Assembly: GCA_024998815.1 (NCBI GenBank)
Contig: JACEUQ010000003.1
Coordinates: 323,900 to 387,899, forward strand
Length of the DNA stretch: 64,000 nucleotides
Direction of reading: 5' to 3'
From: Opitutus sp.
GTDB taxonomy: Bacteria > Verrucomicrobiota > Verrucomicrobiia > Opitutales > Opitutaceae
A program made the position numbers and the translations under genes. The notes beneath the pieces are model-generated. The model had not been told where the DNA came from and did not search any database. It saw only the letters and a list, made by a program, of their open reading frames with translations. This document shows positions 2,728 to 53,476 of the stretch, one piece after another. Position 1 is the first letter of the stretch. The number at the start of each line of letters is the position of its first letter.

Positions 2728-3842
2728 GTGCTTAATTGCGTAGATTAATGATAGTATTTCTGAGTTGGCTTCCCTTGACCTCGCGCTTGCGCCACTTGAA
2801 CGGCTTGGCATTGGGCAGGTAGGCGGCGACGAAAGCGTCAATGGCCTGACTAAGTTCGGCGACGCTTCTGAAGTTCGCGCCCCGTAGCGCCTTCCTTGTT
2901 AGTATGCCGAACCAGATTTCAACTTGATTGAGCCAACTCGCCGAGGTTGGGGTAAAGTGGAAGTGGACATTGGGGTGCCGAGCGAGCCAAGCGTCGCACT
3001 TTTTGTGGGTGCAATAATTATCCAAAATCACGTGGAGTTCTCTCTCGGGCGGGTGATCCGCCACCACTTGGTCCATGAACAGCAGGAACTCCTCCCGGCG
3101 CTTAAGGGTGGTTTTCTGCGTCTTGATCAAGCCCGTGGCCACATCAAGGGCAGCGAACAAGTTGAGTGTACCGTGGCGCTTGTAGGTGCTTTTGAGTCCC
3201 TGGACGATTTTACCATTGTCGGTCTCCACGTAACCGGTGGCGCGCTCTAGGGCTTGGATGCCAGGCTTTTCATCCACACTTATCACCAATGCCTTTTCCG
3301 GTGGGCTCAGGTAGAGCCCGACGATATCGGCTGCCTTGGCTGCGAACTGCTTGTCAGTGCTCACGCACCACGAGCGCTGGCGCTGCAGGCAAATGCCCTC
3401 CTTGCGCAGCACTCGCCAGACCGCGTGCACCGAGCCGCCGAGCACACGGGCCACCGCTGGACCATCCCAGCGCGCCTGCCCCGGAGGGGGTGGCCCTTCC
3501 AATAAAGCCAGCACCCGATCTCGAAAGTCCTCACCGTAGGTGCGCTTCGCGCCCGGCCGTGCCGCATCATCCAGCCCCTTCATGCCAAGCAGCACAAAGC
3601 GATCCCTCCACTTTATTACGGTGTTCGGCCTGGTGTTGCAGCGGCGCGCCACCTCTTGCACCTGCTCGCCACTCACGCACCCAAGGATCATCCGGGCGCG
3701 CTCAACTCGCTGCCTCGACTCAATCCGGCTGGTTGCCCGTTTTTCTAGGGATTGCTGATCCCCCTCGCTACAAGTGATTCGCACGGCTTTTCGTCCCATC
3801 TACAAAGCGGATACAATATCACTTATTATTGCAAGTAAGCAC
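2728..3842 (-). mobile_element. IS630-family insertion sequence, complete
   Basis: About 1,115 bp with imperfect terminal inverted repeats: GTGCTTAATTGC at the left and, reading inward, GTGCTTACTTGC at the right. It is flanked by TA on both sides (2726-2727 and 3843-3844), the target duplication expected of the IS630/Tc1 group. It carries one transposase gene. A 341-bp part of a second copy, without visible difference, lies at 12053-12393. Confidence 0.9.
2732..3799 (-). CDS. IS630-family transposase
   Basis: 355 residues. N-terminal helix-turn-helix region (RARMILGCVSGEQVQEVARR, WRDRF) binds the ends. The DDE_3 catalytic core shows ISVDEKPG (first Asp), VILDNYCTHK (second Asp) and NQVEIWFGIL (Glu). 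All catalytic residues are present and the frame is open, so it is probably active. The frame stops 5 bases from the left end of the element. Confidence 0.95.
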   Translation of the reverse strand: MGRKAVRITCSEGDQQSLEKRATSRIESRQRVERARMILGCVSGEQVQEVARRCNTRPNTVIKWRDRFVLLGMKGLDDAARPGAKRTYGEDFRDRVLALLEGPPPPGQARWDGPAVARVLGGSVHAVWRVLRKEGICLQRQRSWCVSTDKQFAAKAADIVGLYLSPPEKALVISVDEKPGIQALERATGYVETDNGKIVQGLKSTYKRHGTLNLFAALDVATGLIKTQKTTLKRREEFLLFMDQVVADHPPERELHVILDNYCTHKKCDAWLARHPNVHFHFTPTSASWLNQVEIWFGILTRKALRGANFRSVAELSQAIDAFVAAYLPNAKPFKWRKREVKGSQLRNTIINLRN

Positions 3843-6443: not shown

Positions 6444-6922
6444 CTATGTTTTCACGGGACGCTTACGCTGCGGGGACTTTTCCACGGGGTAATTAGCCGC
6501 TGCGGCGCGCAGGGTTTCGCCGATGTGGTCTCGGAGCGAGGGGGGCGAAATCACGGTGATGTCCGCGCCTTGGGACAAGATCCAGAACGAGAGCAGCCAG
6601 GAGTCCTTCACCGTGGCCGTAAGGACGTAACCGTTATCGGAGCGCAACTGCTGATCCTCGGCGAGCTTGGCCTCCGCAAGATAGCAGGCCAGTTTGGTGG
6701 AAACGTGGGCTTCGAGCTGGATCATGGCACCGCCGCCAAACTCCATACCCCCACCGGCCAGGAAGGCGTCGAGGGAGAAGTCGGCCGGACGGTTGGCGGA
6801 CTCGGTTGTTAATTTCGCCGAGCGCATCCGGTGGAGCGCGTAGAGGCGCACGTCTGGATAATCAAATGCGGTGGCGACAAGGTAAGCGACCGGGCCGTTT
6901 TGGACTAGGGCGAGCGGGTGAA
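6444..6922 (-). pseudogene. WYL-domain regulator, C-terminal remnant
   Basis: The frame is open from the IS edge at 6922 to the stop at 6444. Just inside the break it reads HPLALVQNGPVAYLVATAFD then YPDVRLYALHRMRSAKLT, the C-terminal half of a WYL domain, followed by a WCX-type extension ending PQRKRPVKT. The N-terminal HTH and first half of WYL are missing, and I see no matching piece on the far side of the mobile DNA. Without its DNA-binding part it is unlikely to work. WYL proteins often regulate DNA-damage or defence genes. Confidence 0.8.
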
Positions 6923-8211
6923 CCTAAATCCGGCAATAGAAACTAGCCAAAAATCACGCAGGTGATTGTTTGGCTGTCATATGCCGCCGTTTTTACCGCC
7001 GGAAAAAGCTCACCCCGAGGGTGAGTCAGAAAACCCTGATCACAAGGCAACGCCAAGCGATGCCGCCGAGGTGTTGATTGTGGATACACCCGGAGGACGT
7101 TTTCGTGCGCAGTTCGCCCCAGAGTTGCCGGTGAGCCCCTTGGGGGCACTGGTGTTTTTCACGCAGTACTTGTGTGCGACAGGAGGCTTCGAGGCACTGG
7201 TTGCGGACACGCCGCTTTGTTACAGCAGCAACCGCGCACACCGCCCTCGCGACGTGATTGGAACCCTGCTTTTGGGGATGCTCTCCGGGCACTATCGCTA
7301 CGCGCACCTCGCGGCCCTGCGCGGCGACGACATTGCCCCGAGCCTGCTCGGACTTAAGTCGATTGTCAGCGAGGATTGTGTGCGCCGGGCGCTGGCTCGC
7401 ATCGGTGCCGAGCAGGGGCAGGACTGGTTGCGGCGTCACCTCGACCAAACCTGTCATGGGTTTTTGGATAACCAGTGGATCCTCGACATCGATGTCACCA
7501 TCAAGCCCATCTATGGACGTCAGGAAGGTGCCAGCATCGGCTATAACCCGCAAAAGCCCGGACGCCCCAGCCACGCCTACCACACCTACTGGATCGCCAC
7601 CTTGCGCCTGTGTCTGGACGTGGAGGTGCACCCCGGCGATCAATCCGCCGCCGGACATGGTTTTGCGGGGCTGTGGGCGCTCATCGACCGACTGCCAGCC
7701 GAGCGCCGGCCCCATCTTTTGCGCGGTGACTGCGCCTATGGCCAGGAGGCGCTGCTCAGTGAAGCTGAAGCGCGTAAACTCAACTATTTGTTCAAACTGC
7801 GCCGCACCGCCAAGGCCCGCGAGCTGGTGGCCGCGCTTGAACGCACCACCACCACCGCTTGGACCGACGCCGGACAAGGCTGGCAGGGCTGCGAAAGCTG
7901 CCTGCGCCTGCAAGGCTGGAACCGGGCCCGACGTGTGGTGGTCTTGCGCCGTCGCCTCAACGACCAACGCCACCCCCGGGCCCGCCGCCGCCTCGTGCGC
8001 GAGCAAGCCGACCACGCTTTGCTGCTGAACATCCCCGACGCGGCCGCCTGCGAGCCGATCATCTACGAACATCAGATCCTCGTTACGAGCCTGCCCTACG
8101 AGATCCTTACCCTTGCCACCCTGTATCGGGAACGTGGGGGCGCGGAAATGTGAGCGGCGGCGCGAACACCGTCTATTTCTGGCGGTTACAAAATCACCTG
8201 TCGTAAAAGCC

Positions 8212-8241
8212 GATGACCGGCCCCGCCAGGGGCCGATCATC
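8212..8241 (-). terminator. Hairpin downstream of istB
   Basis: GATGACCGGCCCC, a GCCA loop and GGGGCCGATCATC form a nearly perfect 13-bp stem just after the istB stop, followed on the minus strand by a short A/T-rich stretch. It probably ends the transposition operon. Confidence 0.55.
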
Positions 8242-8249
8242 AGGCCCGG

Positions 8250-9017
8250 TCAGCTTGCAGGTTCGTCGGCTAGGCGGTCTTTCATGCGGTAGGATTTGCC
8301 CTCGATGACGACGGTCTGAGCGCGGTGCAGCAGGCGGTCCAGGATCGCCGCGGTGATGCCAGCGTCGTTGTTAAAGATCCCTGCCCAGTGTTTGTAGGCC
8401 TTGTTGGTGGTGACGATCAGCGAGCCGCGTTCGTAGCGTTGGCTGACGATCTGGAAGAGCAGGTCGGCCCCCGACTTGTCGAGCGGCAGGTAGCCGACCT
8501 CATCGAGCACGAGCACCGCAGGGGTCATGTAACGCTTCAACTCGGCTTGCAACCGGTGCAGGGACTGGGCGGTGACCAGGGCGTTGATCGCGTCCACCGC
8601 CGTCGTAAACAGCACCGTGTAACCCGCCTGGCAGGCCGCGTAGCCCAACGCGCTCGCGAGATGTGTCTTCCCAAGCCCCACACCACCGCAAAACACCACG
8701 TTGGTGCGCTCCTTCACAAAACCCAGTTCGAAGAGGTGGCGTACCTGCGCTTCGTTCAACTCCTTGGGCCAGTCCCACTGGAACTGGTCGACGGTTTTCT
8801 TGACCGGGAAGCGCGCTGCCTGGATGCGCCGCTCCAGCGCCCGGATCTGGCGGTCCTGGGTCTCGGCCTGCACCAGTCGGCGTAAAAATTCGGCGTGCGA
8901 ACAGCGCGCCTTGGCCGCCTCGGCGGTCAGTTCGCCGTGGTGACGCAACAGGTAACCGAGTTTCAGATACTTAAGCTGGTCTTTTAATAAATCGGGTTTT
9001 TCGGGTTCTGTTTTCAT
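8250..9017 (-). CDS. istB: IS21-family transposition helper ATPase IstB
   Basis: 255 residues from ATG at 9017, which overlaps the istA stop as ATGA. Walker A GGVGLGKTHLASALG lies near residue 103 and Walker B VLVLDEVGYLPLD near 165, then VTTNKAYKHW (sensor) and a C-terminal RLLHRAQTVVIEGKSYRM lid. IstB is the AAA+ helper that binds target DNA and stimulates IstA. All motifs are intact. Confidence 0.95.
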   Translation of the reverse strand: MKTEPEKPDLLKDQLKYLKLGYLLRHHGELTAEAAKARCSHAEFLRRLVQAETQDRQIRALERRIQAARFPVKKTVDQFQWDWPKELNEAQVRHLFELGFVKERTNVVFCGGVGLGKTHLASALGYAACQAGYTVLFTTAVDAINALVTAQSLHRLQAELKRYMTPAVLVLDEVGYLPLDKSGADLLFQIVSQRYERGSLIVTTNKAYKHWAGIFNNDAGITAAILDRLLHRAQTVVIEGKSYRMKDRLADEPAS

Positions 9018-10480
9018 AGAGTGTAGGGGCTTAAATCCGGGGGACACAGTTCGAGTTCCAACGCGGCCACCGCGTCGGCGCGGGTGAGGTGGATCGGCCC
9101 GGCTTGCGGCAAGGCCCGCGCGCGTTGTTCGAGCAAGTTGAGGATGTAATCGCTGGAGTAGGCGCCGAGTTCATGGGCGCTTTCGATCGCCCGGCCGACT
9201 GCCTCCGTTCCATACAGGGCCACCAAACCCACGATAGTCGCCAGGTGGTGTCCCGCGTTGAGCCGGCGCTCCTCCAGCCCCCGTTGGTAGGCGGGTGCCG
9301 CCGGGCTCAGTTCCAAAAACCGTAGCCGCAGGCGCTGCCGCGCTCCCTGCCGTTTGCGCTCTTCGAGTTCGCGCACGTGCTCGGGGTTTTCCACATCGGC
9401 GCGGCGGGCAAAACTGCGGGCGTGCTCGGCCACCAGGGTGCGGTCCGCATAAAACCTCACCTGCGCCCCCTCGATCTGCGCGGTGAGTAGCGCCCCGGCA
9501 AACTTCGTGGGCACCGAGTAGCGGTTCGTTTCGATACTCACCCGGCACCGCCGCGACGCCCGCACGCTTAAGGTGCGCACCGCCGGACTGGCCACCGGGT
9601 TAAGCGGCAGGAGCGCAGCGCGCTCCTCGGGCAGCCGGTCCACCGGCCGGCCCTGGGTTTCAGCGTGAACGCGCACGTTGGCCACCGTTTCCAGCCACAA
9701 GCTGGCGGCCGGCCCCAGCTCGGTAAACCCGTTCATCTGCCGCCCGCCAAGGAAGCTTTTTTTCACGTAACCCACCGCGTTTTCCACCATGCCCTTGGAC
9801 TGCGGATGCCCCGGCCCGCACGCTTTTATCGTAAACCCGTAGTGCCGGGCAAAGTCCAGGTACTGGGCGTTGTACACCGGGTCGGTCCCGGGCACATGCG
9901 AGAGGACGGCCGTCTTGCAGTTGTCCACCATCACCTCGCGCGGCACCCCGCCGAGTTTTTCAAAGGCGCGCCGGTGACAGCCCAGCCACCACTCCTGGCC
10001 CTGCCCGAGGGTAAATTCCACATGCAGGAACCGGCTGTACCCCAAAACCATGACGAAAAAACTTAAAGCCCGCCGGGTGCCGTCCACCTCCACCGCGCCA
10101 AAACTGCCCCAGTCCACCTGCGCGGTCTGGCCGGGGGCAAACTTGAGGGTAAGAAACGCCTCCAGGTTCCTCGGCCGCACCCGCCGCACGTAGTCTTTCA
10201 AAATTGAATACCCGCCCGTGTACCCCCGCTCGCGCACCTTTTGCCAGAGCTGCATGGCGGTGAACGGATGGGCCTCCAGCCAGCGCGCGATCGCCGGCTT
10301 GTGCACGTCGAGCTTGCTTGGCCTAGGCACCTGCGCGGCCTGGCTGCGCACGTACTTTTCCTGCGCCTGCCAGCGCCTCACCGTCTGCACGTGCAACTGG
10401 AGCGAGCGGGCGATTTGCGGCGCACTGTGACCGGCCGCCTCCGCCTGTTTTATCCGGCAATACAGTTCGTAATCGATCAC
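9014..10480 (-). CDS. istA: IS21-family transposase IstA
   Basis: 488 residues, GTG start at 10480 overlapping the preceding stop (GTGA). N-terminal HTH (SAPQIARSLQLHVQTVRRW), rve integrase core with QVDWGSFG (first Asp), MVDNCKTAVL (second Asp) and a later GPGHPQSKGMVENAVGYVKK (Glu), then a Mu-type beta-barrel region. It catalyses cut and strand transfer. Coupled translation with istB is typical. Confidence 0.95.
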   Translation of the reverse strand: MIDYELYCRIKQAEAAGHSAPQIARSLQLHVQTVRRWQAQEKYVRSQAAQVPRPSKLDVHKPAIARWLEAHPFTAMQLWQKVRERGYTGGYSILKDYVRRVRPRNLEAFLTLKFAPGQTAQVDWGSFGAVEVDGTRRALSFFVMVLGYSRFLHVEFTLGQGQEWWLGCHRRAFEKLGGVPREVMVDNCKTAVLSHVPGTDPVYNAQYLDFARHYGFTIKACGPGHPQSKGMVENAVGYVKKSFLGGRQMNGFTELGPAASLWLETVANVRVHAETQGRPVDRLPEERAALLPLNPVASPAVRTLSVRASRRCRVSIETNRYSVPTKFAGALLTAQIEGAQVRFYADRTLVAEHARSFARRADVENPEHVRELEERKRQGARQRLRLRFLELSPAAPAYQRGLEERRLNAGHHLATIVGLVALYGTEAVGRAIESAHELGAYSSDYILNLLEQRARALPQAGPIHLTRADAVAALELELCPPDLSPYTL

Positions 10481-10836
10481 GCGCCCACCTCCCGGCTCGG
10501 CGGCGGCGTTGCCGCCAGCGTGTGCGTTGGCCTGCCCCGGTCCAAGGAGAGCACCTGGTAAAGTGGCGCGGCGTAGGCGATCACCCCGGCCTCGATTAAC
10601 TGCCGGCGCGCCTCGACCAGGCCGTCCTCGCTGAGCGTGAGCAGCCGGGCCAGGGTGCGCGTGGCGTAGTAACTCAGCCCGTCGGCGTCGCCCACGGTGA
10701 CCAGGACCAGATAGAGGCCCCAGGCGGGGGCACTGGCCCGCCCCAGGTAATTGCCCCGCACCAGCCGGTGGTCCAGCCAGCTAAACTGGGCCGGCGTGCG
10801 CCGGAGTTGTTCGCGATCGATCGGTTGTTTTTGCAT
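10477..10836 (-). CDS. Passenger gene of the IS21-type element, unknown function
   Basis: 119 residues starting MQKQPIDREQLRRTPAQFSW. It is helical, with an AWGLYLVLVTVGDADGLSYY segment followed by RTLARLLTLSEDGLVEARRQ and LIEAGVIAYAAPLYQVLSL, which has the look of a winged-helix DNA-binding fold similar to replication or primosome helpers. The stop overlaps the istA GTG as GTGA, so it is translated with istA. No characterised family recognised; a role in target choice, regulation or transposition is inference. Confidence 0.7.
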   Translation of the reverse strand: MQKQPIDREQLRRTPAQFSWLDHRLVRGNYLGRASAPAWGLYLVLVTVGDADGLSYYATRTLARLLTLSEDGLVEARRQLIEAGVIAYAAPLYQVLSLDRGRPTHTLAATPPPSREVGA

Positions 10837-11338
10837 AATCGGGCGGCTGGACGTCGATGCCCAGGATCACCCGCCCCCGGGATTGCAGGTGTCGCAGCAT
10901 GGGTTCGAGGTCCTCTTGTAACGTCACTCCGGCGAACTGCGCGATAAGCCCCACGAGCACAGGGTTTTGCGACTCCCATCTGTCTTGTAACGGCACGCAG
11001 GGATTCGGTAACGCCACCTCGGCGACCGGCTCGGCTTTAGGCTGGTGCACAACGGATTGCGTAGTTGGGATGTCTTGTAACGCCACCCGCCGTCGCGGCC
11101 CCCTCCGCCTTGAGTACCCCGGATTGGCCTTCCGCCACTCCTGCACCCGTTGGACATTTTCTGGGCCTTTCCAGTGGTCGAGGTTCTCCGGCTTCGCCAA
11201 CCATTTGGCCTGACTGGCCGCCCGGCTCGCCCGTCGGCATCCCGGCTTCCCGCAGTAGCGCTGACGCTCGCGGTTATGCGCGTCGGGCAGAAAGAAATCG
11301 ACACAGTGCAAACACTTGCGTGAACCGGTTGGATGCAT
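10781..11338 (-). CDS. Passenger gene of the IS21-type element, Cys-rich zinc-finger-like protein
   Basis: 185 residues, ATG at 11338. N-terminal CLHC near residue 9 and a YCGKPGCRRASRAASQAKW stretch (residues 29-47) give a CxxC-x(15-20)-CxxxxC arrangement that could bind zinc, followed by NVQRVQEWRKANPGYSRRR. The C-terminal half is less structured. Its last 56 bases overlap the start of the next gene. First gene of the four-gene operon; might bind the element's ends or regulate it, which is inference. Confidence 0.7.
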   Translation of the reverse strand: MHPTGSRKCLHCVDFFLPDAHNRERQRYCGKPGCRRASRAASQAKWLAKPENLDHWKGPENVQRVQEWRKANPGYSRRRGPRRRVALQDIPTTQSVVHQPKAEPVAEVALPNPCVPLQDRWESQNPVLVGLIAQFAGVTLQEDLEPMLRHLQSRGRVILGIDVQPPDYAKTTDRSRTTPAHAGPV

Positions 11339-12052
11339 CGCTGTGCATCCGCCAAGCGTCCCGCCGGTTCAATCTCCACCCATTCGCACCCCTCATATCC
11401 CCAGCCGGACAGGGAAGAAAACCCACCCACGGAAGAAGAGTATTACTCTTTTTAAGGGGAAGAAGATCCACCGAAGAAGAAGTGCATTCCTAACCGCCAG
11501 AAATAGACGCTTTCCCGCTCGCCGCTCACAGCGGAAAACCCCTTCGACGAGCTCAAGAACCAGTGGAGCTGGTCGGGGTTTACCTCCCAGGAGCTAAACT
11601 CCTGTCAGCACGCCGCGCGTTTGGCCGCACTGGTTTACAACTGGTGGACGCTCTATCACCGCCTGCTTCAACCCGGTCAGCACCACGAGGCGGTGAGTAC
11701 ACGTCCCCGTCTGCTCTGCGGAGCGACCCGGCAGAGCGAACACTCCGGTCAACGCCGCCTGGACGTGCGCTTGAGCCATGCCGAGGCACCTCGCCTGAGT
11801 GAACTCATCACAAAGCTGGCCAGATGGTTACATGGTATCCTTCATAATGCGGAGCAATGGAGTGTCGCCCAGCGCTGGGGGCAAATCGTAGCGAGGATTT
11901 TACAGGAAAACTTCCCTGTACTCGGCCCTGAACCGCCTTTGGCCACCGCCCCAAGCTGATCGCGCTTCCGTTCAGCCTGCCGCAGCACTCTCCACCCTCA
12001 TCTATCCGACGGGCAACGCCCGCCGGCCGCACTTTCTATTGCCGGATTTAGG

Positions 12053-12393
12053 ATAAAGCCAGCACCCGATCTCGAAAGTCCTCACCGTAGGTGCGCTTCG
12101 CGCCCGGCCGTGCCGCATCATCCAGCCCCTTCATGCCAAGCAGCACAAAGCGATCCCTCCACTTTATTACGGTGTTCGGCCTGGTGTTGCAGCGGCGCGC
12201 CACCTCTTGCACCTGCTCGCCACTCACGCACCCAAGGATCATCCGGGCGCGCTCAACTCGCTGCCTCGACTCAATCCGGCTGGTTGCCCGTTTTTCTAGG
12301 GATTGCTGATCCCCCTCGCTACAAGTGATTCGCACGGCTTTTCGTCCCATCTACAAAGCGGATACAATATCACTTATTATTGCAAGTAAGCAC
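12053..12393 (-). mobile_element. IS630 remnant, right end only
   Basis: Matches 3502-3842 of the complete IS630, carrying the first 97 or so transposase residues (start at 12350) and the right inverted repeat, followed by the TA target at 12394-12395. It ends at the IS1380 edge exactly where an ATAAA target would have been duplicated. The other two-thirds of the IS630 are absent. Confidence 0.9.
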
Positions 12394-12395
12394 TA

Positions 12396-13993
12396 GCTCC
12401 ATCCGCACTTTGTCGCGTAACTTGACCAGACTTTTCGCACTGGGTTCCACGTGCGGATACCTTCGTTTGCTCTTCATGCCTTGCCGCCATGCGACGGAAA
12501 AACCGAGGAACTCAAAGCCTTCCTTTCGTGTATCCACCAGTCGGGTTTTCTCTTCGTTGAGCTTTAACTTACGTGCCTCCAGCCACCGTTTCAGTCGCGT
12601 TTGCAGCCCCGCCCCTTGACCCGGTTTGCACAGGATCAGGAGGTCGTCGGCGTAACGCACCATCGTCGGCTTTTGTTCGCACTTCTCATTCACCGCATGA
12701 TCGAGGTCGTTGAGGTAGAGGTTCGCCAGCAGAGGCGATATAACTCCGCCTTGTGGCGTGCCACACCGGTTCGCGCTCACCTTGCGGCACCCCGTGTCCC
12801 GGTCCTCTTCCACGATGGGTGCGCGCAGCCACGTTTTTATTAAACGCAACACGCTCCCATCGCTCACCCGTTTGGCCACCAATTGCAGGAGTTCGCGGTG
12901 CGGGATCATATCGAAGTAGCTCGATAAATCCGCGTCCACCACCTCCACCTTTCCGCTCAGCATGGCTTCCTTGACCTTATCCATCGCCTGATGGGTCCGA
13001 CGTTTCGGCCGGTAGGCGTAGGAATGGTCATGGAAGTCCGCCTCTAGGATTGGCTGCAACACGATCACCGCCGCGCTTTGCACCACCCGGTCTTTCACCG
13101 TAGGGATGCCCAGCGCACGACGTTTGGTCCTGGCCTGATCCTTCCATATATAGACGCGCAGGACCGGACTGGGTCGGTAGGTTTTCGTTCGCATTTCCTC
13201 CGCCAGCGCAAGCAGCCATGCCGCCCGATAGGCTTCGTTCTTTACGAGCGTTTCCACCTCGAACCCGTCCACTCCCGGCACGCCGTCATTGGCGATCACC
13301 TGATCGAGCGCATCCGACAGAATGTCCTGCCGATACAGCTCTCCATACAAACTATAGAACCGCCAATGCGGCTCCGCTTTTGCTTTCCGATATAGCACAC
13401 GTTGCAGCTTCCGAACCTTCGGTGACGTTTTTATCCAGAGTTCATCACCCCAGCCATCGTCGGGTCCTTTGCCGCTCTGTGATGCGTGGGAACAAGTGCC
13501 CTCCCTTCGCTCCCCGGCGGTTTTAATGTCCGCTAGATCATCACTACTATGGAGGTCTCCGACTCCTGCCACGGCCCGTCCGGCCTTACGAGGTTTTGCC
13601 GCGCTTGTGCCGGTGGTTGAGGCATCGCAAGACGCCCCACCGCCGCAGGTCTCACCACTTAACCTAACGACCTTTCCCACCCCGCCGCCCCCGCTGACTC
13701 CGCCGACGTGTTGATCGGAAATCAACGATTTAGGTCCTACGTCTTTGCGAGACTGCCTTTTCCGATCCTTGCAGGCTTCACCGTTCAGGTAGCGGCTGGA
13801 CTCGTCGGTTGTTTCGGTAACGGAGCTCATTGGATGGGGTTCACCTTCGTTGCGGCTGACTGGTTCGGGCACACGGTCGTGCTTTCCGGCGAGGCCTCGC
13901 GGCCTGCATCCGTGACCGGGCCCTTCGACCGCGAATCGTTAAATTCGGCCGAACAGACTTTCACTGTTATGGTTGTTAGTTTCATGGTCGCAC
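12396..13993 (-). mobile_element. Group II intron remnant, 5' part with truncated reverse transcriptase
   Basis: The intron 5' end GTGCGACC lies at 13993 reading left. The reverse transcriptase frame (ATG about 13830) runs to 12396, where an IS630 was inserted at the TA of GAG CTA GAT, equivalent to 52672-52680 in the complete copy. The YADD catalytic motif is kept, but the maturase/X region, domain V and domain VI are gone. Protein differences from the other copy are few (for example ILEADF versus IWEADF, THQAMD versus THHAMD), so the copies diverged recently. Not functional for splicing. Confidence 0.9.
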
Positions 13994-14371
13994 ACCTGAA
14001 TTCCGAAGTTCAAACCAACCACAGATTACACAGATTACACAGATACAATCCCTTAGGAGGTAAACGGACTCAGCTTGATTCCCTTTTTTTTCATCCTGTC
14101 TTCAAATTCAGTAACACTCTGTTATCTGTGCTCATCTGTGAATTCCGTGGTTAAAACTTCGGCGTTCGGGTTTAACTCGTGCCAAGAACCATACAGGTGC
14201 TGCGCATCATGTATGGCGATCTGAGCTGATCACTCCGGAGAGTTTCGCAGACTTCGCAACAGCCACCCTCACGTCAACGAACTCATCGAAACCCATGCCG
14301 TTGCTACCTGCGGTACGATTCTACCTTAGCTGGGGGGGGGGATCTCAACTCGTTTTGGGGCCAAACTCCAG
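13994..14371 (+). repeat. Repeat R1, copy a (5' end replaced by intron remnant)
   Basis: Begins at the intron junction with ACCTGAATTCCGAAGTTC and ends GGCCAAACTCCAG. Inside are an ACCACAGATTACACAG tract, a pyrimidine stretch, and a block that begins TTTAACTCGTGCCAAGAACC. Other copies are at 37024-37424 (reverse), 44994-45208 (shorter) and 50885-53270 (interrupted by the complete intron). Full copies have the inverted ends CTGGAGTTTGGCC. This copy has a G10 run (14332-14341) where others read G6ACGG. No gene is seen in 13994-14566. Confidence 0.8.
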
Positions 14372-14566
14372 ACCCTGAGCTCACGCTCAGGGCCACGCAC
14401 CGTTTCGCTGAGCACGAACCTACACTAGGACCCGTTTTTTCCAGCGAAAAGCAGCTCACTATTCAAAAACTGGGATACGCCCCGCCAGTTGCGGTCCGCG
14501 AAGCACTTTGCCCGCCCGCCCCAATTCCGTGCGGCACACCGCACGCCGGGCGCGCCTCCGCGCAGC

Positions 14567-15469
14567 CTACCCCGCCGCCACACCCATGTGGTCGCCCATG
14601 CGCGCATAGGTTTCTATCTGCTGGGCGCTCTGCGTCACCAAATCGTCATCCAGGCGAATGCGGCCTTTCGCAAACACCGTGATCACGCAGGAGCCGCCGA
14701 AGGTGAAAAAGCCCTTCTCCTCGCCCTTGGCCACCGGCTGGCCCGCCGCGAACACGTTCTTGATCGTGCCCACGCAGGTCGCCCCGACCTCGAACATCGC
14801 CACCCGTCCAAAGCGCGAATCGTCGATGAGCGTCAGGGCGCGTTTGTTCTGCACGAGGTAGCCGACATTTTTGCGCAGCGCGATGGGGCTCACAGAAAAA
14901 AGCGCCCCGTTAAGGATGCGCGGGGCACTGGGTTTGCCCGCCACCGGGAAATGAAACCGGTGATAATCCACCGGGCACAACCGCGAGATCACCATCGAGC
15001 CTCCGGCAAATTCAGCGGCGAGTGAGGCGTCGTTAAACAAATCGGCGAAGGTAAACTTCATGCCCTTCACATAAAACCCCTGCGCTGCATCCACGTCGGG
15101 AAACCCCAGGTGGCGGCCGTCGGCGGCGAACACCGCGACGTCGTTGCCCGGAGCGATGGGGCGCGCGGCGGGCGTGAGACCGCGATAGAAAAACTCGTTA
15201 AACGTCTTAAACGACAGCGGCGAACAGGCGAACTCGTCGACGTTAAGGTCGTAGTTAGCGATGAACGGCAGCACACGTTGGGCGCTCATCGGGCGGTCCA
15301 TGCGCCAGCCGTACCAGTGCGAAAACACCGCGCGCTTGATCAGAGCCCAGGTCGAAAAGCGCCCCAGCGCGGTCTCGTAGGTCCAACGCAGCCACGGCTC
15401 GCCATACACCAGCTCAGTCTCGGTGGTCTGCGTATAACGGTTATGAAAACGAATCGGATCAGCGCTCAT
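14567..15469 (-). CDS. psd: Phosphatidylserine decarboxylase proenzyme
   Basis: 300 residues from ATG at 15469 (MSADPIRFHNRYT); the longer frame upstream only adds repeat-derived codons. Key features are CPVDYHRFHFPVAG (catalytic His region), GRVAMFEVGATCVGTI, and the self-cleavage site FGGSCV near residue 264, where the Ser becomes the pyruvoyl group of the alpha chain. It converts phosphatidylserine to phosphatidylethanolamine at the inner membrane. The partner enzyme PssA is encoded at 55941-56828. It is monocistronic, with repeat DNA on both sides. Confidence 0.95.
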   Translation of the reverse strand: MSADPIRFHNRYTQTTETELVYGEPWLRWTYETALGRFSTWALIKRAVFSHWYGWRMDRPMSAQRVLPFIANYDLNVDEFACSPLSFKTFNEFFYRGLTPAARPIAPGNDVAVFAADGRHLGFPDVDAAQGFYVKGMKFTFADLFNDASLAAEFAGGSMVISRLCPVDYHRFHFPVAGKPSAPRILNGALFSVSPIALRKNVGYLVQNKRALTLIDDSRFGRVAMFEVGATCVGTIKNVFAAGQPVAKGEEKGFFTFGGSCVITVFAKGRIRLDDDLVTQSAQQIETYARMGDHMGVAAG

Positions 15470-15549
15470 GTTGGAGGGAAAGCGACCACCTTCACCGCCG
15501 CCGCGTGGGGGCGCAAAGCAGAAAATCCAGCGCCTCGGCGTTGCACGCC

Positions 15550-15806
15550 TCCCTGAGCTCACGCTCAAGGCCACACTTGGCGCGGCTCACCCGGGGGCCT
15601 GCATTTGTCGGGACCAGCCCCGCCCAACTCATCCCGTGTTGCGTTGTCCGACGTGGCCTTGCGCGTGAGCGCGAGGGGCTTTTTCCGGCGCGCTTTGCGC
15701 TCCCCTCCTTGAGCTCACGCTCAAGGCCACACTCTTCTCGATCACACTTCTCGTGGCCTTGAGCGTGAGCTCAAGGTGTTTACCCTAATATAACGCCCCC
15801 CCCCCA
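15550..15806. repeat. Cluster of TCAC-loop hairpin repeats and a C10 run
   Basis: Hairpins of the form CCTTGAGC-TCAC-GCTCAAGG lie at 15551-15570 (one mismatch), 15707-15726 and 15757-15776, with a stem variant CCTTGCGC-GTGA-GCGCGAGG at 15657-15676. A connecting block (GGGGCCTGCATTTGTCGGG and onward) is shared with 22020-22300. A C10 run occupies 15796-15805. No gene between 15470 and 15850. Confidence 0.85.
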
Positions 15807-31700: not shown

Positions 31701-32244
31701 GCGGAAGGGGAGTAACCACTAATGAACACTTATGGGCACTAATGAAGGCAGAAAGTCGACAGCCCGAATACCCCAGATTCTTAACCGCTAATGGGCGCTA
31801 ATGGACGCTAATTACGCGTCGACTAATTCCAAGCCGCTCGAGCCTTTTAGCCGCGAAAGAACGCAGAGATCGCATAGAACTAAACCTAAATCCGGCAATA
31901 GAAAGTGCGGCCGGCGGGCGTTGCCCGTCGGATAGATGAGGGTGGAGAGTGCTGCGGCAGGCTGAACGGAAGCGCGATCAGCTTGGGGCGGTGGCCAAAG
32001 GCGGTTCAGGGCCGAGTACAGGGAAGTTTTCCTGTAAAATCCTCGCTACGATTTGCCCCCAGCGCTGGGCGACACTCCATTGCTCCGCATTATGAAGGAT
32101 ACCATGTAACCATCTGGCCAGCTTTGTGATGAGTTCACTCAGGCGAGGTGCCTCGGCATGGCTCAAGCGCACGTCCAGGCGGCGTTGACCGGAGTGTTCG
32201 CTCTGCCGGGTCGCTCCGCAGAGCAGACGGGGACGTGTACTCAC

Positions 32245-33985
32245 CCTAAATCCGGCAATAGAAACTAGCCAAAAATCACGCAGGTGATTGTTTGGCTGTC
32301 ATATGCCGCCGTTTTTACCGCCGGAAAAAGCTCACCCCGAGGGTGAGTCAGAAAACCCTGATCACAAGGCAACGCCAAGCGATGCCGCCGAGGTGTTGAT
32401 TGTGGATACACCCGGAGGACGTTTTCGTGCGCAGTTCGCCCCAGAGTTGCCGGTGAGCCCCTTGGGGGCACTGGTGTTTTTCACGCAGTACTTGTGTGCG
32501 ACAGGAGGCTTCGAGGCACTGGTTGCGGACACGCCGCTTTGTTACAGCAGCAACCGCGCACACCGCCCTCGCGACGTGATTGGAACCCTGCTTTTGGGGA
32601 TGCTCTCCGGGCACTATCGCTACGCGCACCTCGCGGCCCTGCGCGGCGACGACATTGCCCCGAGCCTGCTCGGACTTAAGTCGATTGTCAGCGAGGATTG
32701 TGTGCGCCGGGCGCTGGCTCGCATCGGTGCCGAGCAGGGGCAGGACTGGTTGCGGCGTCACCTCGACCAAACCTGTCATGGGTTTTTGGATAACCAGTGG
32801 ATCCTCGACATCGATGTCACCATCAAGCCCATCTATGGACGTCAGGAAGGTGCCAGCATCGGCTATAACCCGCAAAAGCCCGGACGCCCCAGCCACGCCT
32901 ACCACACCTACTGGATCGCCACCTTGCGCCTGTGTCTGGACGTGGAGGTGCACCCCGGCGATCAATCCGCCGCCGGACATGGTTTTGCGGGGCTGTGGGC
33001 GCTCATCGACCGACTGCCAGCCGAGCGCCGGCCCCATCTTTTGCGCGGTGACTGCGCCTATGGCCAGGAGGCGCTGCTCAGTGAAGCTGAAGCGCGTAAA
33101 CTCAACTATTTGTTCAAACTGCGCCGCACCGCCAAGGCCCGCGAGCTGGTGGCCGCGCTTGAACGCACCACCACCACCGCTTGGACCGACGCCGGACAAG
33201 GCTGGCAGGGCTGCGAAAGCTGCCTGCGCCTGCAAGGCTGGAACCGGGCCCGACGTGTGGTGGTCTTGCGCCGTCGCCTCAACGACCAACGCCACCCCCG
33301 GGCCCGCCGCCGCCTCGTGCGCGAGCAAGCCGACCACGCTTTGCTGCTGAACATCCCCGACGCGGCCGCCTGCGAGCCGATCATCTACGAACATCAGATC
33401 CTCGTTACGAGCCTGCCCTACGAGATCCTTACCCTTGCCACCCTGTATCGGGAACGTGGGGGCGCGGAAAACCCCTTCGACGAGCTCAAGAACCAGTGGA
33501 GCTGGTCGGGGTTTACCTCCCAGGAGCTAAACTCCTGTCAGCACGCCGCGCGTTTGGCCGCACTGGTTTACAACTGGTGGACGCTCTATCACCGCCTGCT
33601 TCAACCCGGTCAGCACCACGAGGCGGTGAGTACACGTCCCCGTCTGCTCTGCGGAGCGACCCGGCAGAGCGAACACTCCGGTCAACGCCGCCTGGACGTG
33701 CGCTTGAGCCATGCCGAGGCACCTCGCCTGAGTGAACTCATCACAAAGCTGGCCAGATGGTTACATGGTATCCTTCATAATGCGGAGCAATGGAGTGTCG
33801 CCCAGCGCTGGGGGCAAATCGTAGCGAGGATTTTACAGGAAAACTTCCCTGTACTCGGCCCTGAACCGCCTTTGGCCACCGCCCCAAGCTGATCGCGCTT
33901 CCGTTCAGCCTGCCGCAGCACTCTCCACCCTCATCTATCCGACGGGCAACGCCCGCCGGCCGCACTTTCTATTGCCGGATTTAGG
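32245..33985 (+). mobile_element. IS1380-family element, copy 2, complete
   Basis: 1,741 bp with 20-bp inverted ends, flanked by CTCAC (32240-32244 and 33986-33990). Inserted in copy 3 in the opposite orientation. The sequence shows no visible difference from the other two copies where they overlap, so transposition was recent. Confidence 0.95.
32288..33892 (+). CDS. IS1380-family DDE transposase, intact
   Basis: 534 residues. Catalytic Asp in WILDIDVTIKP near residue 175, followed by the family signature YGRQEGASIGYNPQKPG; second Asp in LLRGDCAYGQEAL; Glu in ERGGAENPFDELK (Y-R-E-K-like). C-terminal region ends LGPEPPLATAPS. This is the only uninterrupted copy in the window and could mobilise the others. 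ISEcp1 belongs to the same family. Confidence 0.93.
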   Translation: MFGCHMPPFLPPEKAHPEGESENPDHKATPSDAAEVLIVDTPGGRFRAQFAPELPVSPLGALVFFTQYLCATGGFEALVADTPLCYSSNRAHRPRDVIGTLLLGMLSGHYRYAHLAALRGDDIAPSLLGLKSIVSEDCVRRALARIGAEQGQDWLRRHLDQTCHGFLDNQWILDIDVTIKPIYGRQEGASIGYNPQKPGRPSHAYHTYWIATLRLCLDVEVHPGDQSAAGHGFAGLWALIDRLPAERRPHLLRGDCAYGQEALLSEAEARKLNYLFKLRRTAKARELVAALERTTTTAWTDAGQGWQGCESCLRLQGWNRARRVVVLRRRLNDQRHPRARRRLVREQADHALLLNIPDAAACEPIIYEHQILVTSLPYEILTLATLYRERGGAENPFDELKNQWSWSGFTSQELNSCQHAARLAALVYNWWTLYHRLLQPGQHHEAVSTRPRLLCGATRQSEHSGQRRLDVRLSHAEAPRLSELITKLARWLHGILHNAEQWSVAQRWGQIVARILQENFPVLGPEPPLATAPS

Positions 33986-35480
33986 CTCACCGCCTCGTGG
34001 TGCTGACCGGGTTGAAGCAGGCGGTGATAGAGCGTCCACCAGTTGTAAACCAGTGCGGCCAAACGCGCGGCGTGCTGACAGGAGTTTAGCTCCTGGGAGG
34101 TAAACCCCGACCAGCTCCACTGGTTCTTGAGCTCGTCGAAGGGGTTTTCCGCGCCCCCACGTTCCCGATACAGGGTGGCAAGGGTAAGGATCTCGTAGGG
34201 CAGGCTCGTAACGAGGATCTGATGTTCGTAGATGATCGGCTCGCAGGCGGCCGCGTCGGGGATGTTCAGCAGCAAAGCGTGGTCGGCTTGCTCGCGCACG
34301 AGGCGGCGGCGGGCCCGGGGGTGGCGTTGGTCGTTGAGGCGACGGCGCAAGACCACCACACGTCGGGCCCGGTTCCAGCCTTGCAGGCGCAGGCAGCTTT
34401 CGCAGCCCTGCCAGCCTTGTCCGGCGTCGGTCCAAGCGGTGGTGGTGGTGCGTTCAAGCGCGGCCACCAGCTCGCGGGCCTTGGCGGTGCGGCGCAGTTT
34501 GAACAAATAGTTGAGTTTACGCGCTTCAGCTTCACTGAGCAGCGCCTCCTGGCCATAGGCGCAGTCACCGCGCAAAAGATGGGGCCGGCGCTCGGCTGGC
34601 AGTCGGTCGATGAGCGCCCACAGCCCCGCAAAACCATGTCCGGCGGCGGATTGATCGCCGGGGTGCACCTCCACGTCCAGACACAGGCGCAAGGTGGCGA
34701 TCCAGTAGGTGTGGTAGGCGTGGCTGGGGCGTCCGGGCTTTTGCGGGTTATAGCCGATGCTGGCACCTTCCTGACGTCCATAGATGGGCTTGATGGTGAC
34801 ATCGATGTCGAGGATCCACTGGTTATCCAAAAACCCATGACAGGTTTGGTCGAGGTGACGCCGCAACCAGTCCTGCCCCTGCTCGGCACCGATGCGAGCC
34901 AGCGCCCGGCGCACACAATCCTCGCTGACAATCGACTTAAGTCCGAGCAGGCTCGGGGCAATGTCGTCGCCGCGCAGGGCCGCGAGGTGCGCGTAGCGAT
35001 AGTGCCCGGAGAGCATCCCCAAAAGCAGGGTTCCAATCACGTCGCGAGGGCGGTGTGCGCGGTTGCTGCTGTAACAAAGCGGCGTGTCCGCAACCAGTGC
35101 CTCGAAGCCTCCTGTCGCACACAAGTACTGCGTGAAAAACACCAGTGCCCCCAAGGGGCTCACCGGCAACTCTGGGGCGAACTGCGCACGAAAACGTCCT
35201 CCGGGTGTATCCACAATCAACACCTCGGCGGCATCGCTTGGCGTTGCCTTGTGATCAGGGTTTTCTGACTCACCCTCGGGGTGAGCTTTTTCCGGCGGTA
35301 AAAACGGCGGCATATGACAGCCAAACAATCACCTGCGTGATTTTTGGCTAGTTTCTATTGCCGGATTTAGGCTAAAGGGCTTTTTCTTTGCGCTCCTTGC
35401 GCTCTTTGGCGGCCAAACTGCCTTGGCTGGCTCCGCCACGTTGAATGCTACTGCACGCTGAGACACGTGACCCGCCGCCA

Positions 35481-36994: not shown

Positions 36995-37550
36995 AAAAGT
37001 AGCGCAGACTTCCAGTCTGCTCCCTGGAGTTTGGCCCCAAAACGAGTTGAGATCCGCCCCCCCCCCCCAGCTAAGGTAGAATCGTACCGCAGGTAGCAAC
37101 GGCATGGGTTTCGATGAGTTCGTTGACGTGAGGGTGGCTGTTGCGAAGTCTGCGAAACTCTCCGGAGTGATCAGCTCAGATCGCCATACATGATGCGCAG
37201 CACCTGTATGGTTCTTGGCACGAGTTAAACCCGAACGCCGAAGTTTTAACCACGGAATTCACAGATGAGCACAGATAACAGAGTGTTACTGAATTTGAAG
37301 ACAGGATGAAAAAAAGGGAATCAAGCTGAGTCCGTTTACCTCCTAAGGGATTGTATCTGTGCAATCTGTGTAATCTGTGGTTGGTTTGAACTTCGGAATT
37401 CAGGTTAAACGGCCAAACTCCAGACCTTGAGCGTGAGCTCAAGGATTCGGCTGATCTGCGTTCGACTAGTCAGGGGCCAAACTCCAGAGCGCAGACTTCC
37501 AGTCTGCTCCGGGTCCGGCCGAGGCAGACTGGAAGTCTGCGCTACTTTCT
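36995..37550. repeat. Repeat block: TCC-loop hairpins, R1 copy b, TCAC-loop hairpin
   Basis: A GCAGACT-TCC-AGTCTGC hairpin (36995-37022) abuts R1 copy b in reverse orientation (37024-37424, ends CTGGAGTTTGGCC and GGCCAAACTCCAG; C12 run at 37057-37068). Then come a TCAC-loop hairpin (about 37426-37445), a fragment ending GGGGCCAAACTCCAG shared in inverse with 44749-44798, and a paired TCC-loop hairpin (37491-37546). R1b lacks the intron and so gives the empty target site. No gene is seen between 36879 and 37750. Confidence 0.85.
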
Positions 37551-44753: not shown

Positions 44754-45208
44754 AGTTTGGCCCCTGACTAGTCGAACGCAGATCAGCCGAATCCTTGAGC
44801 TCACGCTCAAGGCCACACTCTTCGCGAACACACTCCTTGTGGCCTTGAGCGTGAGCTCAAGGATTCGGCGCACCGCAGCCAGAAAAAACACCTCGTGCTC
44901 ACGCACGAAGCCACACCGAGCCAAAGCCACCCAGGCAAAGGCACACTCCAGGCCGCACCCGCCCGAACGTGGCCTTGAGCGTGAGCTCAAGGTCTGGAGT
45001 TTGGCCGTTTAACTCGTGCCAAGAACCACACAGGTGCGGCGCATCATGTATGGCGATCTGAGCTGATCACTCCGGAGAGTTTCGCAGACTTCGCAACTGC
45101 CACCCGCACGTCAACGAACGCACCGAAACCCATGCCGTTGCTACCTGCGGTACGCTTCTACCTTAGCTGGGGGGACGGATCTCAACTCGTTTTGGGGCCA
45201 AACTCCAG
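44754..45208. repeat. Repeat block with TCAC-loop hairpins and R1 copy c
   Basis: TCAC-loop hairpins lie near 44797, 44840 and 44972, with the stem variant TCGTGC-TCAC-GCACGA near 44893. R1 copy c (44994-45208) has both CTGGAGTTTGGCC-type ends but lacks the ACCACAGATTACACAG half. No gene. Confidence 0.8.
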
Positions 45209-45211
45209 ATC

Positions 45212-45236
45212 AAGGCTAACCCAATAGGTTAGCCTT
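45212..45236. terminator. Bidirectional terminator before the PLP enzyme gene
   Basis: AAGGCTAACC-CAATA-GGTTAGCCTT followed by TATT; on the minus strand it follows the PLP enzyme stop by 18 bases. Confidence 0.65.
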
Positions 45237-45254
45237 TATTCCGGGCGGGGAGTT

Positions 45255-50884: not shown

Positions 50885-51078
50885 CTGGAGTTTGGCCGTT
50901 TAACTGAATTCCGAAGTTCAAGCCAACCACAGATTACACAGATTGCACAGATACAATCCCTTAGGAGGTAAACGGACTCAGCTTGATCCCCTTTTTTTCA
51001 TCCTGTCTTCAAATTCAGTAACACTCTGTTATCTGTGCTCATCTGTGAATTCCGTGGTTAAAACTTCGGCGTTCAGGT

Positions 51079-53070
51079 GTGCGACCATGAAACTAACAAC
51101 CATAACAGTGAAAGTCTGTTCGGCCGAATTTAACGATTCGCGGTCGAAGGGCCCGGTCACGGATGCAGGCCGCGAGGCCTCGCCGGAAAGCACGACCGTG
51201 TGCCCGAACCAGTCAGCCGCAACGAAGGTGAACCCCATCCAATGAGCTCCGTTACCGAAACAACCGACGAGTCCAGCCGCTACCTGAACGGTGAAGCCTG
51301 CAAGGATCGGAAAAGGCAGTCTCGCAAAGACGTAGGACCTAAATCGTTGATTTCCGATCAACACGTCGGCGGAGTCAGCGGGGGCGGCGGGGTGGGAAAG
51401 GTCGTTAGGTTAAGTGGTGAGACCTGCGGCGGTGGGGCGTCTTGCGATGCCTCAACCACCGGCACAAGCGCGGCAAAACCTCGTAAGGCCGGACGGGCCG
51501 TGGCAGGAGTCGGAGACCTCCATAGTAGTGATGATCTAGCGGACATTAAAACCGCCGGGGAGCGAAGGGAGGGCACTTGTTCCCACGCATCACAGAGCGG
51601 CAAAGGACCCGACGATGGCTGGGGTGATGAACTCTGGATAAAAACGTCACCGAAGGTTCGGAAGCTGCAACGTGTGCTATATCGGAAAGCAAAAGCGGAG
51701 CCGCATTGGCGGTTCTATAGTTTGTATGGAGAGCTGTATCGGCAGGACATTCTGTCGGATGCGCTCGATCAGGTGATCGCCAATGACGGCGTGCCGGGAG
51801 TGGACGGGTTCGAGGTGGAAACGCTCGTAAAGAACGAAGCCTATCGGGCGGCATGGCTGCTTGCGCTGGCGGAGGAAATGCGAACGAAAACCTACCGACC
51901 CAGTCCGGTCCTGCGCGTCTATATATGGAAGGATCAGGCCAGGACCAAACGTCGTGCGCTGGGCATCCCCACGGTAAAAGACCGTGTGGTGCAAAGTGCG
52001 GCGGCGATCGTGTTGCAACCCATCTGGGAGGCGGACTTCCATGACCACTCCTACGCCTACCGACCGAAACGCCGGACCCATCATGCGATGGACAAAGTTA
52101 AAGAGGCCCTGCTGAGCGGAAAGGTGGAGGTGGTGGACGCGGATTTATCGAGCTACTTCGATATGATCCCGCACCGCGAACTCCTGCAATTGGTGGCCAA
52201 ACGGGTGAGCGATGGGAGCGTGTTGCGTTTAATAAAAACGTGGCTGCGCGCACCCATCGTGGAAGAGGACCGGGACACGGGGTGCCGCAAGGTGAGCGCG
52301 AACCGGTGTGGCACGCCACAAGGCGGAGTTATATCGCCTCTGCTGGCGAACCTCTACCTCAACGACCTCGATCATGCGGTGAATGAGAAGTGCGAACAAA
52401 AGCCGACGATGGTGCGTTACGCCGACGACCTCCTGATCCTGTGCAAACCGGGTCAAGGGGCGGGGCTGCAAACGCGACTGAAACGGTGGCTGGAGGCACG
52501 TAAGTTAAAGCTCAACGAAGAGAAAACCCGACTGGTGGATACACGAAAGGAAGGCTTTGAGTTCCTCGGTTTTTCCGTCGCATGGCGGCAAGGCATGAAG
52601 AGCAAACGAAGGTATCCGCACGTGGAACCCAGTGCGAAAAGTCTGGCCAAGTTACGCGACAAAGTGCGGATGGAGCTAGATGTGCGAACGCGCAACCAAC
52701 CGGCGGTGGCGGTGGTCCGCAAGGTCAACCAAATCACTCGCGGTTGGGCGACGGCGTTTCATTACGGCAACAGCACGCACGTGTTTAGTAACCAGCAGGC
52801 TTTTGTGCGCAACCGGTTGCGGCGGTGGCTGTGGCGAAAGTATAGCCGCACCCACGGACTCTTTCGAGTTCTTCACCGACGACCGTTTGCATGGTCAATA
52901 CAAACTATGGCACTGGCCGCTTACGGCGGCTTGGAAGCAATGAACTCCGCTGAAACCAAACCGAAAGAATGGGGACTCGGTAAGCCGTGTGCGGGAAAAC
53001 CGCTTGCACGGTTTGACGAGGGGGAGGGTCGCGCTGACGGGTTACCGACGCGCGGCTCTCTCTACTCTAC
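51079..53070 (+). mobile_element. Group II intron, complete
   Basis: 1,992 bp. The 5' end is GTGCGACC (GUGYG class) and the 3' end CTACTCTAC (AY). Boundaries are set by comparison with empty R1 copies. It contains a reverse transcriptase/maturase gene and a recognisable domain V. It sits in the sense orientation of R1 after GTTCAGGT; the truncated intron at 13993 sits after ATTCAGGT of another R1 site, so both chose similar targets. Confidence 0.92.
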
Positions 53071-53074
53071 TTAA
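51242..53074 (+). CDS. ltrA: Group II intron reverse transcriptase/maturase
   Basis: 610 residues from ATG at 51242. The first 120 or so residues are low-complexity and probably read through ribozyme domains; the conserved protein starts near WIKTSPKVRKLQRVLYRKAK. RT blocks: RRALGIPTVKDRVVQ, AYRPKRRTHHAMD, DADLSSYFDMIPH, CGTPQGGVISPLLANLYL and the catalytic VRYADDLLILC. The maturase X region includes VRKVNQITRGWATAFHYGNS. The frame continues through domain V and VI and stops at TAA in the 3' exon. No HNH endonuclease domain is visible. The true start is uncertain. Confidence 0.9.
   Translation: MSSVTETTDESSRYLNGEACKDRKRQSRKDVGPKSLISDQHVGGVSGGGGVGKVVRLSGETCGGGASCDASTTGTSAAKPRKAGRAVAGVGDLHSSDDLADIKTAGERREGTCSHASQSGKGPDDGWGDELWIKTSPKVRKLQRVLYRKAKAEPHWRFYSLYGELYRQDILSDALDQVIANDGVPGVDGFEVETLVKNEAYRAAWLLALAEEMRTKTYRPSPVLRVYIWKDQARTKRRALGIPTVKDRVVQSAAAIVLQPIWEADFHDHSYAYRPKRRTHHAMDKVKEALLSGKVEVVDADLSSYFDMIPHRELLQLVAKRVSDGSVLRLIKTWLRAPIVEEDRDTGCRKVSANRCGTPQGGVISPLLANLYLNDLDHAVNEKCEQKPTMVRYADDLLILCKPGQGAGLQTRLKRWLEARKLKLNEEKTRLVDTRKEGFEFLGFSVAWRQGMKSKRRYPHVEPSAKSLAKLRDKVRMELDVRTRNQPAVAVVRKVNQITRGWATAFHYGNSTHVFSNQQAFVRNRLRRWLWRKYSRTHGLFRVLHRRPFAWSIQTMALAAYGGLEAMNSAETKPKEWGLGKPCAGKPLARFDEGEGRADGLPTRGSLYST
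52981..53014 (+). ncRNA. Group II intron domain V
   Basis: A 34-nt hairpin: AAGCCGTG pairs with CACGGTTT, inner stem GCGG/CCGC with a GAAA tetraloop, and the catalytic AGC triad at 52983-52985. This is the core of the splicing ribozyme. Domain VI follows to 53070. Confidence 0.88.
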
Positions 53075-53476
53075 CTCGTGCCAAGAACCATACAGGTGCT
53101 GCGCATCATGTATGGCGATCTGAGCTGATCACTCCGGAGAGTTTCGCAGACTTCGCAACAGCCACCCGCACGTCCACGAACGCATCGAAACCCATGCCGT
53201 TGCTACCTGCGGTACGCTTCTACCTTAGCTGGGGGGACGGATCTCAACTCGTTTTGGGGCCAAACTCCAGGCCTTGAGCGTGAGCTCAAGGATGCAGGCG
53301 CCCCTTCGTCCCCAGAAAAAGCACCTCGTGCTCACGCACGAAGCCACGCCGGACACAAAACCACGCCAAGCCAAAGCCACACGAACTTCACCCGGGAGAC
53401 GTGCCTTTGCCCATCGCGCACTCCGGCCCAAAATCCGCGTTTTTTTAGCCTACCCGCGGCGTGTTGGAGCTTACAC

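Follow-up and report, generated by a model that had tools for sequence, protein, structure and literature searches.

In IS-rich bacterial genomes, homologous recombination between near-identical IS copies gives rise to large rearrangements, with the copies acting as crossover points. For inversion 2z3 of Drosophila, the Galileo transposon has been described as the agent of ectopic recombination in which target duplications were exchanged (PMC2775673). Group IIC introns have been described as inserting at terminator or attC stem-loops (PMC4424553). A literature search on nested IS elements with group II introns and rearrangement found, judged by title, nothing on the subject. Here we describe a nest of mobile elements that was probably broken by homologous exchange between dispersed near-identical repeat copies, and not by deletion.

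The window analysed is the stretch of 64,000 nucleotides at C3:323900-387899, in a genome of 4,236,418 bases assembled into three contigs (C1, C2 and C3); positions given without a contig are those of the window. On the left, the stack adjoins the C-terminal 158 codons of a WYL/WCX regulator (6444-6922, minus strand; Pfam WYL and WCX), which is cut at the junction 6922/6923. There follow positions 1-1226 of an IS1380-type element (6923-8148, plus strand; left end CCTAAATCCGGCAATAG), which match the beginning of the copy at 32245-33985 with 100% identity; an IS21-type element (8149-11530, minus strand; istA 9014-10480, istB 8250-9047); and positions 1220-1741 of the IS1380-type element, including its right end (11531-12052, plus strand). 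Next come one half of an IS630 element coding for the transposase N-terminus (12053-12392, minus strand), the 5' part of a group II intron with a truncated RT (12393-13993, minus strand), a hairpin repeat of 178 nt (13994-14171) and the right half of a repeat, R1 (14171-14392, plus strand). The hairpin repeat lies inside R1 between TTTAAC direct repeats, with the intron at its outer end. The right flank of the stack is psd (phosphatidylserine decarboxylase; 14567-15574, minus strand).

Read from the inside outwards, the nest consists of IS21, IS1380, IS630, group II intron, hairpin repeat and R1. An earlier note on this DNA gave the same order but missed the hairpin repeat; counted as an extra level, this makes six. 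The order is borne out by the coordinates, the target duplications and copies with empty sites. IS21 is surrounded by the 7-bp target duplication GCGGAAA (8142-8148 and 11531-11537), and with one duplicate removed the IS1380 element (6923-8148 plus 11531-12052; 1741 bp) is base-for-base the same as the uninterrupted copy at 32245-33985. The target of IS1380 in IS630 is ATAAA, and the empty site is present at 3480-3530 in the window's uninterrupted IS630. The target of IS630 in the intron is CTAG (12393-12396, duplicated by IS630); an intact intron reads GGATGGAGCTAGATGTGC unbroken at 52669. On the minus strand, the intron is inserted between CAGGT and TAAACGG, where the hairpin has its outer end. 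In the R1 copy at 37040-37500 the hairpin is present, with TTTAAC on both sides, and the intron is absent; the R1 copy at 44920-45240 lacks the hairpin. The DNA fold of the hairpin repeat has a z-score of -3.44, and none of 200 shuffles was as stable. Chance is not an issue in these comparisons, as the elements are long exact repeats.

The best model match of the IS1380 transposase is NF033539, with 144 bits against a cut-off of 180; the part that precedes IS21 scores above cut-off with Pfam DDE_Tnp_1_4. The element has terminal inverted repeats with 20 identical end bases, CCTAAATCCGGCAATAGAAA, and a 5-bp target duplication at 17 of 25 copies. In a scan of named genomes, the closest relatives of the transposase were three Opitutae/Opitutaceae MAG loci (58-60% identity), which makes Verrucomicrobiota the probable phylum of the host. 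For IS21, the istA/istB models NF033546 and NF038214 are above cut-off, both ends read TGTGAGCGGCG, starting with TG, and a 7-bp duplication flanks the window copy and three of four further copies inspected. The IS630 transposase matches NF033545 with 225 bits against a cut-off of 100 (intact copy 2732-3799). The intron RT/maturase matches TIGR04416 above cut-off (intact copy 51200-53074), and RF00029 exceeds the gathering score at 52980-53070 of the same copy. Three of the elements are present in many copies: IS1380 has at least 25 matches over the whole of its left 1219 bp, IS21 at least 39 full-length copies, and IS630 at least 31 matches, whole or partial (among the best 40 of 63 candidates scored).

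According to the earlier note, IS630, intron and R1 retain their right halves, in order, but lack their left halves, which were removed together with the WYL N-terminus by a deletion starting at the IS1380 left edge. The left halves are indeed absent from the window but not from the genome: all three are located, in order, at C2:1421258 to about 1422477. IS630 query positions 74-857 occupy C2:1421258-1422041 and end in ATAAA, which abuts the left end of a further IS1380 copy (C2:1421257) and is there the reciprocal flank of the nested IS1380; the window half starts with ATAAA. The two IS630 halves (query 853-1181 at C3:335952 and 74-857 at C2:1421258) have exactly the five duplicated bases in common, and no other pair among the 31 IS630 matches listed (best 40 of 63 candidates scored) has this breakpoint. 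The intron 3' part is at C2:1422036-1422434, followed by the R1 left half, of which about 43 bp (GTGGCCTTGAGC...TTTGGCCGTTTA) are common to the copy at 44920. The intron halves and the R1 halves each join at the empty site found in other copies. About 260 bp beyond the R1 left half lies tRNA-Leu(TAG) (C2:1422740-1422823), the neighbour of psd in 10 of 12 relatives. A deletion is thus refuted for three of its four parts, which were probably rearranged instead, and as an account of the whole locus it is very improbable. The points in its favour are the WYL N-terminus, which was not found in the assembly, and two partnerless IS1380 copies that resemble deletion products (see below).

psd was found in all 13 genomes of the genus, our own included. 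In the 10 other genomes with the pairing, tRNA-Leu(TAG) is downstream of psd on the same strand, with a gap of 58-85 bp in G001, G002, G003, G004, G005, G006, G008 and G011 (in ascending order 58, 64, 65, 66, 67, 67, 67 and 85 bp), 2,186 bp in G009 and 2,278 bp in G010; the gaps for G001, G005 and G009 were calculated by hand. In G007, no tRNA-Leu was found in the 6.3 kb downstream of psd up to the contig end, and G012 is uninformative because psd is at a contig edge. In our genome psd is on C3 and tRNA-Leu(TAG) on C2, each beside its own half of the nest. At a distance of 9-14 kb from psd, G010 and G011 have genes that in our genome are on C2 (1.41-1.45 Mb), and G002 has one such gene; in G011, genes found here at C1:5-10 kb are about 7 kb away from psd. 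In G004, G006 and G008, psd was the sole match among the stretches compared. Around psd of G010 and G011, the only match to the C3 stretches searched was psd itself. The other C3 neighbours of psd are therefore not shared either, and lend no support.

The earlier note was right to regard the IS1380 left edge as an abnormal junction formed after the insertions. The flanking 5-mers of the nested copy, GTGAA on the left and ATAAA on the right, do not match, whereas those of the other two copies in the window do (CTCAC/CTCAC and TTTAG/TTTAG). Genome-wide, the nested copy is not the sole exception. Both ends are intact in 25 IS1380 copies: the flanks match exactly in 17 of them, differ at one base in two and differ at two or three bases in six, the nested copy among them. 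One more copy has a left end only. Exchanged 5-mers are found across contigs, with ATTAA/GTTAC at C2:1415766 and GTTAC/ATTAA at C1:12467. When the ATTAA flanks are joined, one in-frame open frame of 283 codons runs across the site; judged by eye, it is a methyltransferase-like gene split between contigs. GTTAC corresponds to IS21 positions 2521-2525. It occurs as a right flank at two places (C2:1417506 and C2:185958) and as a left flank at one, and the ATTAA/GTTAC exchange is therefore not a clean one-to-one swap. Diverged IS1380 pieces at C2:182796 and C1:14446 have mismatched outer flanks (CTCAA/ATTAA); the chain of exchanges is thus incompletely traced, and we do not use this locus as proof. 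The IS1380 copies at C2:1386205 and C2:1425198 have unmatched flanks and no partner. The latter (ATAAA/CTGAT) joins an AraC-type gene to an integrase-like gene beside tRNA-Leu (names by eye), an arrangement that we interpret as the product of a deletion between two copies of IS1380.

The IS21 element of the C2 partner is a mosaic. It is the same as the window IS21 at positions 1-1582 and the same as the copy at C2:183433-185957 from 1583 to 2525 (10 of 10 differing sites). The latter copy differs from the window IS21 at nine sites in 123-594, and the two are identical between 594 and 1583; a crossover or conversion in this interval would explain the allele switch. The chimerism is read from the IS21 alleles, the IS1380 copies being identical. 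IS1380 positions 1-1226 and IS21 positions 1-1582 are present on both the C3 and the C2 side of the break. A single reciprocal crossover is therefore insufficient, and passenger transposition, copying repair or sharing of an assembly path is needed in addition. As the left 1226 bp of IS1380 and at least 1582 bp of IS21 occur on both sides, we tentatively suggest, at less than even confidence, that IS1380 and its inner IS21 moved as one 5.1-kb unit, or that the exchange involved non-reciprocal copying of them by break-induced replication or gene conversion. If so, the genome would be reshuffled via duplicating exchanges in nested repeats rather than by simple crossovers.

One specific form of the exchange explanation, whose likelihood overlaps with that of the whole, is that an IS1380 carrying IS21 (5.1 kb) jumped into the WYL gene and that this copy then recombined with the copy in IS630. 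Such a jump would account for the segment present in both products. However, no third IS1380 with IS21 at 1220-1226 was seen, and in the single further near-identical IS1380 that contains an IS21 the insertion is at 216-222; we consider this form rather doubtful.

The main doubt about homologous exchange is a possible assembly error, whereby the assembler switched between IS1380/IS21 copies and the order psd-stack-tRNA-Leu is intact in the cell. The breaks do fall in repeat arrays 3.7-7.5 kb long (C3:330822-338279 and C2:1415766-1422434), the shared IS1380 and IS21 segments look as if two paths had used the same node, and the partner of the GTGAA flank is missing. Against this, the matching duplications at 17 of 25 IS1380 copies indicate that most copies were resolved in the assembly, and an assembly in three contigs, in spite of at least 25 copies of IS1380 and at least 39 full-length copies of IS21, suggests that long reads were used. 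On balance we think an assembly error unlikely.

The fourth missing part is the N-terminus of the WYL gene. WYL homologues from three genomes of the family (48-54% identity) continue N-terminally beyond the cut. A paralogue-based protein search of our own genome returned only the paralogue and the fragment itself. The paralogue at C2:872777-873616 was rejected as the missing half: over the 31 residues in common its identity is only 70%, and an IS21 interrupts it as well. GTGAA follows none of 27 exact IS1380 right ends, implying that the WYL gene's own partner is missing from the assembly. Within the genus no close WYL homologue was found, only matches of 26-30% identity, so that the former neighbour of the gene could not be found. 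Reading frames beside the homologues in the three other genomes, viewed by eye, showed no common neighbour, and the 32-base junction had no match in a contig scan that may leave out our own genome. Given the protein search and the right-end flanks, this part of the gene may have been lost, as proposed in the earlier note, perhaps in a step like the apparent deletion at C2:1425198.

GC skew changes sign at the block, with a mean of +0.056 over 46 kb on the left and -0.032 over 45 kb on the right, and among 44 split points the one with the strongest contrast, at 333 kb, falls within the block. Negative values do not extend over all of the right side: at 374-394 kb the skew is positive again. A sign change is expected if pieces of opposite replication direction were joined, but could equally mark a replication terminus.

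Our preferred explanation, homologous exchange, would run as follows. The stack would have grown between psd and tRNA-Leu(TAG) by successive arrival of R1, hairpin repeat, group II intron, IS630, IS1380 and IS21. Exchange between IS1380 and IS21 copies would then have split it. One half (R1 right, intron 5' part, IS630 right and IS1380 right) would have become joined via IS1380 to the WYL gene on C3, and the other (IS630 left, intron 3' part, R1 left and tRNA-Leu) via the IS21 mosaic and a further IS1380 to the methyltransferase-like gene on C2. A separate step of the chain would have led to the loss of the WYL N-terminus or placed it outside the assembled sequence. We infer that the exchanges are real chromosomal events and not assembly joins, and their order is inferred likewise. 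Nested repeats together with empty-site copies allow both halves of a broken locus to be traced. When a loss is deduced from a single window of an IS-rich genome, the conclusion can be mistaken, because the missing pieces may sit on another contig.

The intron described here resembles group IIC introns in being located at the end of a stem-loop repeat, a likeness by position alone; it differs from their description in that the repeat bears introns at either end in different copies (PMC4424553). With Galileo and inversion 2z3 the present case has in common chimeric copies at the breakpoints, target duplications that were swapped, here in part, and an uninterrupted order in relatives; it differs in the bacterial genome, several chained exchanges, one missing partner end and the lack of an un-rearranged strain of the same species (PMC2775673). 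The event belongs to a known kind. As in IS-IS recombination, near-identical IS copies would be the crossover sites; unlike in the general case, the crossovers here would lie inside a six-level nest, which makes exact bookkeeping of the halves possible.

The same 178-nt hairpin repeat carries the group II intron at either of its ends, as seen at positions 13994-14171 and 50900-53300 of the window and in matches elsewhere in the genome. By our own count, 12 of the intron matches listed for the genome lie in one orientation and nine in the other; judging from these arrangements, the intron seems to use either end of the stem-loop as a target.

Three intron copies adjoining IS630 sequence (window 12053-13993; contig C2 of the source genome, 1364144-1365936 and 1639135-1640963) share a common end point, at CTAG (query position 1780). 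The identical end therefore reflects either a common ancestor of the three copies or a preferred target of IS630.

At window 31885-35371, a minus-strand IS1380 copy is split by a second, identical copy (32245-33985), which is flanked by the target duplication CTCAC; the TTTAG flanks of the outer copy still match on both sides. On C2 (1422740-1425198), an integrase-like gene comes after tRNA-Leu(TAG) and is interrupted by an IS1380 element whose flanks do not match, with an AraC-like gene beyond (both gene names were assigned by eye). This region may be a genomic island that has decayed. The WYL regulator has a paralogue at C2:872777-873616 that is likewise broken, in this case by an IS21 element.
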